From NCBI GenBank assembly GCA_017856235.1, contig JAFMFH010000011.1, forward strand, positions 1 through 37,517: a stretch of DNA of 37,517 nucleotides. The letters run 5' to 3'. Position 1 is the stretch's first letter. The number at the start of each line of letters is the position of its first letter. Of the stretch, positions 1 through 21,897 are shown piece after piece. The notes below the pieces were generated by a model. It saw only the letters and a program-made list of their open reading frames with translations, searched no databases and had not been told where the DNA came from. This DNA comes from Flavobacteriaceae bacterium (GTDB lineage Bacteria; Bacteroidota; Bacteroidia; Flavobacteriales; Flavobacteriaceae). The position numbers were made by a program, and so were the translations under genes.

Positions 1-84
1 GCCTTTGGTTCTTCTGAAGCTGGCTCTTCAGCCTTTGGTTCTTCTGAAGCTGGCTCTTCAGCCTTTGGTTCTTCTGAAGCTGGC
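1..84. repeat. 30-bp perfect tandem direct repeat inside the DUF4295 gene
   Basis: Copies lie at 1-30, 31-60 and 61-84 (the last is 24 bp) with no mismatches; the unit starts gcctttggttcttctgaagc. The array continues past the window edge. It is in frame and encodes the decapeptide PASEEPKAEE. Perfect identity at DNA level implies recent expansion by slippage or recombination. Confidence 0.95.
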
Positions 85-266
85 TTCACAGGTATAGGTT
101 GTTCTTTTTCAATTGGTTTTCCAGCAAGCCAATCATTAACTAGATCTTGAGGTAATATTTTTTCATCAAAGGAATAAGAATTAGAACCATCTTTTTTGAT
201 CATTCTAATTGCTTTAGTAAGTTTTTTCGAGCCAGTTTGTAAACTAGCAACAGCTTTTTTTGCCAT
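1..266 (-). CDS. DUF4295 family protein, C-terminus cut by window edge, with decapeptide-repeat tail
   Basis: Partial gene starting at the ATG at 264-266 and running off the left edge (88 codons visible). The N-terminus begins MAKKAVASLQ and contains IRMIKKDGSNSYSF and a DWLAGK segment, which I recognise as the small DUF4295 protein that follows rpmB-rpmG in Bacteroidota. Its function is unknown; constant placement beside L28 and L33, and usually before ftsY, suggests a link to the ribosome. Family members are usually only about 50 residues, so residues after about 58 are extra. That extra part is a tail of PASEEPKAEE repeats, Pro/Ala/Glu/Lys-rich and probably disordered. The gene follows rpmG with one base between, so it is probably co-transcribed. 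Identification rests on sequence and position; the missing end prevents a length estimate. Confidence 0.85.
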   Translation of the reverse strand, partial: MAKKAVASLQTGSKKLTKAIRMIKKDGSNSYSFDEKILPQDLVNDWLAGKPIEKEQPIPVKPASEEPKAEEPASEEPKAEEPASEEPK

Positions 267-267
267 T

Positions 268-450
268 TTATTTAATTTCTTTGTGAACAGTCATCTTCTT
301 CAAAATAGGATTGAATTTTTTAATTTCAAGTCTATCAGGAGAATTCTTTTTGTTTTTAGTAGTAACATATCTAGAGGTACCGGGCATACCAGAGTCTTTA
401 TGTTCTGTACACTCTAAAATTACCTGAACTCTATTACCTTTTTTTGCCAT
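268..450 (-). CDS. rpmG: 50S ribosomal protein L33
   Basis: A 60-residue small protein of the large ribosomal subunit, located near the E site. The N-terminus [18 protein letters not shown] and the C-terminal [11 protein letters not shown] are typical of the family. Only one cysteine is present and the paired CxxC zinc-ribbon motifs are absent, so this is the zinc-independent (C-minus) form. It sits two bases after rpmB and one base before the DUF4295 gene, a conserved Bacteroidota trio. The start is the ATG at 448-450. Confidence 0.97.
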
Positions 451-452
451 GA

Positions 453-689
453 TTACTTAATTTTTCCTTGTTTTCTTGCCTCTTTCAAGACTTCCGAAAT
501 ACCCTTTTTATTAATAGTCTTTAAAGCAGATGCAGAGATTTTAAGTGTTATCCACTTATTCTCATCTGGAATAAAGAAACGTTTCTTAATTAGATTAACA
601 TCAAACCTTCTTCTAGTTCTATTAAGAGATTTTGAAACATTATTTCCAAACATTACTTTCTTTCCAGTAATTTCGCAAGTTTTAGACAT
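453..689 (-). CDS. rpmB: 50S ribosomal protein L28
   Basis: A 78-residue large-subunit protein. The family signature is visible: [11 protein letters not shown] at the N-terminus, the [13 protein letters not shown] basic segment, and a C-terminal [11 protein letters not shown]. Length is normal for Bacteroidota. It is the first gene of the rpmB-rpmG-DUF4295 group; a candidate promoter lies just upstream (713-720). The start is the ATG at 687-689, inside a repeated ACGTCAT sequence (second copy 17 bp upstream) whose meaning I cannot tell. Confidence 0.97.
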
Positions 690-21258: not shown

Positions 21259-21897
21259 TTATTTAGAGTCATCATTAGATTCGTCCTCAGAGGTTTGTTC
21301 CTCTGATTTATTTTCTTCTGCTGAAAGCTCCTGTGCTTTTTCAGCCTCTATTGGAGACTCCTGTGCTTTTTCAGCCTCTATTGGATTTTCACTTAATGTT
21401 TTTACAATACCAGCAATTTTTCCACTACTTGACTTAAGAGCTGAAATAATATTTTTAGCTGGTGACTGAAGAAGAGCAATAATATCACCTATAACTTCTT
21501 CTTTAGATTTAAGGTTGAATAGCGCTTCAATTTGATCATCACCAATGTAAATCGCCTCATCAACAAATGCACCTTTTAATATAGGCTTTTCACTGCCTTT
21601 TCTAAAATTCTTGATAACCTTAGCTGGGCTATTTCCAGATTCTGACAACATTATAGTTGTATTACCTTTAAGCAACTCCTTTAATTCTCCAAAATCAGTT
21701 TCTGATTCAGACATTGCTCTTTCTAAGAAGGTATTCTTAACAACAGAAAGCTTTATGTTAGACTTAAAGCACTCTCTTCTAAGTTTAGAGGTCTGCACGG
21801 CATCAAGTCCAGCAATATCAGTTAAGTAAACTGATTTGTAATCATTTAACTGGCTCTTAAGCTCTTCAACAACTTTAACTTTTTCTTCTTTATTCAT
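21259..21897 (-). CDS. rplJ: 50S ribosomal protein L10 with acidic repeat-containing C-terminal extension
   Basis: 212 residues. The L10 body spans about 1-172 (MNKEEKVKVVEELKSQL, then LRRECFKSNIKLSVVKNTFLERA) and anchors L7/L12 dimers in the ribosomal stalk. L10 is usually about 165-175 residues; here about 40 more follow, starting with two copies of a decapeptide-period segment (PIEAEKAQE) and ending in EDESNDDSK. The tail is Glu/Asp/Ser-rich and probably disordered. It is translated two bases after rplA. Confidence 0.96.
   Translation of the reverse strand: MNKEEKVKVVEELKSQLNDYKSVYLTDIAGLDAVQTSKLRRECFKSNIKLSVVKNTFLERAMSESETDFGELKELLKGNTTIMLSESGNSPAKVIKNFRKGSEKPILKGAFVDEAIYIGDDQIEALFNLKSKEEVIGDIIALLQSPAKNIISALKSSSGKIAGIVKTLSENPIEAEKAQESPIEAEKAQELSAEENKSEEQTSEDESNDDSK
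21328..21385. repeat. 30-bp-period direct repeat in the tail of rplJ
   Basis: The 28-bp unit starting ctcctgtgctttttcagcct is found at 21328-21355 and 21358-21385 with no mismatch, giving a period of exactly 30 bp. It is in frame and duplicates ten residues of the L10 tail. Confidence 0.95.

Follow-up and report, generated by a model that had tools for sequence, protein, structure and literature searches.

Repeat-built C-terminal tails on ribosomal proteins bL38 and uL10 in a genus of Flavobacteriaceae with no detected signal recognition particle GTPases

Introduction

PDB entry 7JIL is the ribosome of Flavobacterium johnsoniae, in agreement with PMC10618245. That paper identifies the DUF4295 family as the large-subunit ribosomal protein bL38 and places bL38 of the Borrelia ribosome next to helix 95 of the 23S rRNA, which holds the sarcin-ricin loop, and to H97, uL6 and uL14 (PMC10618245). 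Here, a bL38 gene is described at the edge of a 37,517-nucleotide stretch of Flavobacteriaceae DNA, referred to throughout as the window.

Nearly all cells rely on the signal recognition particle (SRP) for targeting of membrane proteins. Described exceptions are: the Parcubacteria, with ffh and ffs undetected in every genome studied (PMC4508563); Streptococcus mutans, which is viable without SRP (PMC8546722); and Escherichia coli, for which suppressor strains are viable without SRP (PMC7844537) and loss is survived via suppressors that slow translation (PMC7844537, PMC8299109).

According to PMC9122927, the NS5 marine group comprises four GTDB genera, MED-G11 among them, and the genus of the window is likely to be MED-G11, within the NS5 group of Flavobacteriaceae. 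In the open-licence literature, no paper on bL38 tails or on SRP loss in this genus was recognised.

Results

The features of the window are as follows.

1-85, minus strand: perfect 30-bp tandem array of PASEEPKAEE units, cut by the contig end (TRF; codon test; sole site of the unit in the assembly)
84-122, minus strand: linker GKPIEKEQPIPVK, from core to array (translations; GKPI/GKPL start common to the genus and L071)
123-266, minus strand: folded bL38 core, codons 1-48, common to all relatives (alignment; AlphaFold2)
3-266, minus strand: bL38 gene (DUF4295, PF14128), 3' end off the contig (Pfam E 1.3e-14; PDB 7JIL chain 4 E 1.2e-9)
268-450, minus strand: rpmG (bL33), immediately upstream of bL38 (Pfam)
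453-689, minus strand: rpmB (bL28) (Pfam)
21259-21897, minus strand: rplJ (uL10); past VKTL, an acidic C-terminal tail of 44 residues (PF00466 match in the genome of the window; PDB uL10; genus tails)
21328-21385, minus strand: perfect 30-bp repeat in the uL10 tail, 1.9 copies, PIEAEKAQES, the second such array of the window (TRF; codons)

Residues 2-47 of the protein encoded at the window's edge match DUF4295 (54.2 bits against a cut-off of 27), and residues 1-48 match chain 4 of 7JIL, ribosomal protein L38. The gene follows rpmB and rpmG (268-689), as it does in G530, a genome of another genus. AlphaFold2 predicts a core of three strands and one helix, with pLDDT values of 72-89 over blocks 1-50; for tail residues 57-86 the values fall below 50 and no secondary structure is predicted. 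Judged by its sequence, the gene is bL38, a known large-subunit ribosomal protein. The initial annotation had assigned no known function to DUF4295, a view made outdated by chain 4 of 7JIL and by PMC10618245. Its statement that these proteins are normally about 50 residues long is upheld: 137 of 140 genomes drawn from the family match, 135 of these have open frames of 50-64 residues, and only the genome of the window (G000) and G490 exceed 64. An end near residue 50, typical of bL38, is not seen in the genus proteins. As the core matches bL38 despite this long C-terminus, the gene is called a tailed variant of bL38.

Beyond the usual stop, the bL38 frame runs through a short GKPI linker into units of about ten residues rich in Glu, Ala, Pro and Lys. 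In the window, TRF finds 2.83 copies of the 30-bp unit at a 100% match with 0 indels, and the frame gives 88 residues up to the contig edge, with the C-terminus PASEEPKAEE PASEEPKAEE PASEEPK. The 30-mer unit has this sole site in the assembly, with 2 full copies when up to 3 mismatches are allowed. In the array, 17 of 17 codons are the same as the codon ten positions before, for which the chance is about 10^-5.4 under the codon usage of the window. TRF and the position of the contig agree with the initial annotation of a perfect PASEEPKAEE array of at least 2.8 copies, with zero mismatches, that runs off the window; the start and repeat given there are retained, and the end, given as 84, is one base less than the 85 of TRF.

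Since base 1 of the window is base 1 of contig C12, the array leaves the assembly (58 contigs, 1.22 Mb, 92% complete) at this point, and its copy number here is a lower bound. Contigs of G001, G010, G019 and G022 likewise break in or just short of the bL38 array, and contigs of G012, G020 and G022 break at the uL10 tail. Copy numbers taken from drafts at these arrays are therefore lower bounds. The tail is fully assembled within contigs in 16 congeners, in one of them within a 1.11-Mb contig.

The bL38 gene was located in 55 of 60 relatives: 21 of the 25 congeners and 34 of the 35 relatives from beyond the genus, the latter with open frames spanning 50-59 residues. All 18 congeners with sequence extending beyond the core carry a tail. 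Sixteen of these tails are complete, at 41-91 residues past codon 48 (the G007 tail ends in a frameshift), and two (G000, G001) are interrupted within the array by the end of the contig; three further genes are cut before the tail (G010, G019, G022). The 80 named loci divide into 59 complete proteins of at most 50 residues, 18 long ones and 3 that are cut. A class-wide survey matched 365 of 395 genomes, the longest open frames among about 150 matches listed being 77 and 73 residues. Outside the genus, similar linkers lead into a tail at L071, built from another unit of 11 residues, and into one in G490 that has no repeats. Net charge ranges from -2 to -20 in all 18 long named loci, including L071 and the frameshifted L095; the tail at L062 carries only -2. 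The bL38 tail is genus-wide and not private to this genome.

A similar peptide array is found in the genus on uL10, about 21.5 kb from bL38. The uL10 gene was located in 19 of 25 congeners, and a tail is present in all 16 with a frame past the core (197-245 residues in total; the frame of G017 is shifted at its end). Outside the genus, uL10 matches were obtained in 27 of 30 and 12 of 14 genomes. Most of these open frames have 170-188 residues; the exceptions have 204, 196, 143 and 105, the last with internal stop codons.

A tandem-peptide scan of 1225 open reading frames of G017 returned 11 matches, one of them a run of N. Arrays lie on bS16, bL38, bL31, bL21 and bL25, and uL10, split by a stretch border, is the sixth. 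Ribosomal proteins thus make up 6 of the 11 array cases (p about 2e-6 if, as assumed here, 55 of the 1225 frames are ribosomal). Of these, the array on bL25 (GAE) is acidic and that on bL21 (APAAKK) is basic; each is read in a shifted frame. Frameshifts lie in or just past the arrays of uL10 (L144), bL21 (L287:12483-12962) and bL25 (L269:571-1281) of this genome and are probably sequencing indels. The bL31 protein (L315:14929-15417) has 162 residues with a VEETPV array, as compared to 84 residues in 7JIL. A long APADE pentapeptide array is present on bS16 (L268:12879-13682; L228; L227). Contigs of G003 break within the bS16 array, and the other end lies before rimM, recognised by eye. An S16-Flavobacteria leader RNA (RF03138) occupies L268:12841-12875, immediately 5' of rpsP.

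Arrays also occur on non-ribosomal proteins. A protein of 258-287 residues (L223:748-1608 in G020; L312:1615-2391 in G017) has arrays of EEPVVEEVKQ or EEKPVKEATV and ends in a basic C-terminus; its only match, to FtsA_C, is below threshold. The N-terminal part of Rho of G017 (L311:3119-4609) contains an array of the 11-residue unit KKPVEVKSETD. A restriction of the tails to the factor-binding side of the 50S subunit was considered and rejected: a motif search in five genomes gave only bL38 and uL10, and 25 genomes with a wider scan added others, including non-ribosomal proteins.

The arrays differ between species in both unit and copy number. The unit is PASEEPKAEE, PAKEEPKAEE or the nine-residue PAAEVKAEE, and the 16 complete bL38 tails, from one genome per species, span the 41-91 residues given above. 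Among motif-picked units, identity within an array exceeds that between species: 0.969 versus 0.865 for bL38, and 0.930 versus 0.771 for uL10. Between species, pS of whole bL38 tails is 0.403, as compared to 0.411 in the core. With pS equal in the two parts, the tail must be of roughly the same age as the genus. The initial annotation had read the perfect array as a recent expansion. This holds for the copies within a species, which are recently homogenised, and fails for the tail itself, which at about the age of the genus is no recent private invention. Its counter-scenario, the same tail fixed in relatives with diverged codons, is half borne out: the tail is in 18 of 18 congeners, yet the copies within a species are young.

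For whole tails, with the two frameshifted ones (bL38 of G007, uL10 of G017) omitted, pN/pS is 0.34 in bL38 and 0.26 in uL10, with cores at 0.15 and 0.145, it being understood that codon alignment of repeats can depress pN. Values from motif-filtered units are biased against replacements, and whole-tail values are relied on instead. At these values the peptide is held, less strongly than the cores at approximately 0.15. In G004, PAAEEAKAEE is found in both bL38 and uL10, with differing codons. Unit exchange between bL38 and uL10 of one genome was considered and set aside, as identities of 0.824 within the same genome and 0.796 between genomes differ too little. Taken in aggregate, units are homogenised within species and replaced between species, and conservation is stronger at the peptide level than at the codon level. 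This is read here as repeat turnover combined with selection on the peptide, weaker than that on the core.

The neighbourhood of bL38 also differs between the genus and its relatives. In outside relatives, ftsY is the next gene after bL38 in 13 of 14 loci read (L081 ends too early), and Pfam confirmed FtsY in all 8 of those loci checked. FtsY with acidic N-terminal EP repeats is present in SRP-keeping relatives (L225:1050-2582 of G490, L092, L099). In most genus loci read (L054-L072), a convergent sortilin-like gene lies at the ftsY site, confirmed by Pfam in both of the 2 checked.

FtsY was not found in the genome of the window with TIGR00064, and PF00448, which detects both Ffh and FtsY, found neither in any of the 25 genus genomes. 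Weak SRP54 matches in G021 (25 bits) and G020 (18 bits) were read by eye as ParA and DnaX. With the same model, 14 of 14 controls match, as do 26 of the 27 relatives outside the genus, whose best scores are 244-264 bits; G473 and G586 have identical coordinates and are apparently one genome entered twice. Incompleteness alone would give absence in 25 of 25 genomes with a probability of about 10^-17, the genomes being treated as independent. A phmmer search with FtsY of L233, L237 and L244 against the 1225 frames of G017 gave a best E of 0.006.

Rfam detected no SRP RNA in 1.12 of 1.23 Mb (91%) of G017, a search of one genome without a positive control in a relative; over the same 91% it recovered rRNAs, tmRNA, RNase P, 6S-Flavo and 30 tRNAs. 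Searching for the SRP RNA core by regular expression gave only unrelated sites, 16S rRNA included (by eye and Rfam). The genus has almost certainly lost Ffh and FtsY, and, going by the searched part of G017, the SRP RNA may be gone as well. G530 (95% complete) is also without SRP54-type GTPases, and no ftsY lies between its 50-residue bL38 and a RimO-like gene (L263, C7:28000-32500).

Discussion

The favoured reading, which stands at an even chance, is that the tails are disordered, charged segments maintained by repeat turnover and by selection on the peptide, and that they would function as a charged coat or a built-in chaperone. Copying of units within the array, by slippage or unequal exchange, would alter tail length, and selection may retain an acidic, disordered peptide and leave length free. 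The weakest step is the next, in which the tail would form an unstructured, mostly negative brush on the ribosome exterior. On free, basic bL38, the tail could serve as an intrinsic chaperone that prevents wrong contacts with RNA; once the 50S subunit is finished, it could give the surface near the factor-binding side a charged coat. Four observations count against this reading: the bL21 array is basic, so acidity is not general; similar arrays are found on a few non-ribosomal proteins; pN/pS in the tail is roughly double the core value; and the net charge at L062 is no more than -2.

The strongest alternative is neutral slippage, in which ribosomal C-termini tolerate additions, and slippage-prone, low-complexity sequence lengthens and shortens without function. 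This is possible, if somewhat doubtful. It accounts readily for a length that varies freely from 41 to 91 residues, for a unit that itself shifts (PASEEPKAEE, PAKEEPKAEE, PAAEVKAEE), for the existence of both acidic and basic arrays, and for the different 11-residue unit of L071 on the same linker. It sits less well with whole-tail pN/pS of 0.26-0.34, with bL38 tails that are all negative, with the absence of a tailless protein among the 18 congeners extending beyond the core, and with G004, where bL38 and uL10 encode the same peptide from different codons.

A second alternative connects the tails to the missing SRP. With SRP discarded genus-wide, the ribosome would have been reworked so that its charged repeat tails (bL38 and uL10; in one genome also bL31, bL25, bL21 and bS16) share the job of SRP and compensate for its loss, either by tethering ribosomes close to the membrane or, at the factor-binding side, by a slowing of elongation. 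Ffh and FtsY are absent in 25 of 25 genus genomes, with ftsY missing exactly after bL38, and the E. coli suppressors of SRP loss slow translation (PMC7844537, PMC8299109). Against a strict link, L071 and G490 have a bL38 tail and keep SRP, G530 lacks SRP yet has a 50-residue bL38, and YidC of G017 is without a long basic tail. The link is the speculative part of this account and improbable; present evidence does not support a causal connection of the tail with the loss of SRP.

Two related candidates were also rejected. In one, YidC would offer the acidic tail a basic counterpart; the G017 protein (597 aa, PF02096 E 6e-54), whose C-terminus reads ...NKKKPVKVGGFRARLQKALEEAEKQKKSRGK, lacks a long basic extension. 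In the other, the tail would be what remains of the acidic domain of FtsY. In L071 and G490, the bL38 tail is found with SRP GTPases and with ftsY adjacent; because bL38 tails coexist with intact FtsY, the tail is not such a remnant.

An assembly artefact, which the initial annotation itself had raised, or a collapsed repeat of one draft genome is hardly credible: contig C12 starts within the array, and congener contigs end in or before the bL38 array (four) or at the uL10 tail (three), but such breaks are expected wherever a repeat exceeds the assembly word, and the artefact is refuted as to the tail's existence because the tail is complete inside contigs of 16 congeners.

Ribosomal proteins are generally seen as slow-changing, yet six in one genome carry tandem-array C-terminal tails. 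The bL38 and uL10 tails, genus-wide and differing by species, form a natural series for probing charged, disordered tails on ribosomes. The absence of Ffh and FtsY from 25 of 25 genomes of an ocean genus, beside near relatives that retain both, offers a clean comparison for SRP-free membrane protein insertion, and this result may matter more than the tails.

Comparison with known systems

The acidic N-terminal domain of FtsY (G490, L092, L099) resembles the bL38 tail in being acidic, of low complexity and, in relatives, encoded by the adjacent gene; it differs in belonging to another gene and in having another unit. The Parcubacteria, with ffh and ffs undetected in the genomes studied (PMC4508563), are a known case of natural SRP loss. 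They are a reduced and reportedly symbiotic phylum, whereas the present genus is oceanic, belongs to the Flavobacteriaceae and has SRP-keeping near relatives.

The closest structural counterpart is 7JIL. Its chain 4, F. johnsoniae bL38, shares the core and the gene order after rpmB and rpmG; it has 50 residues and no tail, whereas the genus proteins extend 41-91 residues further past residue 48. The bL31 of 7JIL (84 residues) is likewise without a tail. In contrast, bS16, bL21 and bL25 of 7JIL (188, 147 and 203 residues) have Ala/Glu/Lys-rich, low-complexity C-terminal tails behind a folded core, as here, although these are shorter and without perfect tandem arrays in the aligned parts. As these three proteins are already tailed in 7JIL, the tails of this genus vary a known theme.
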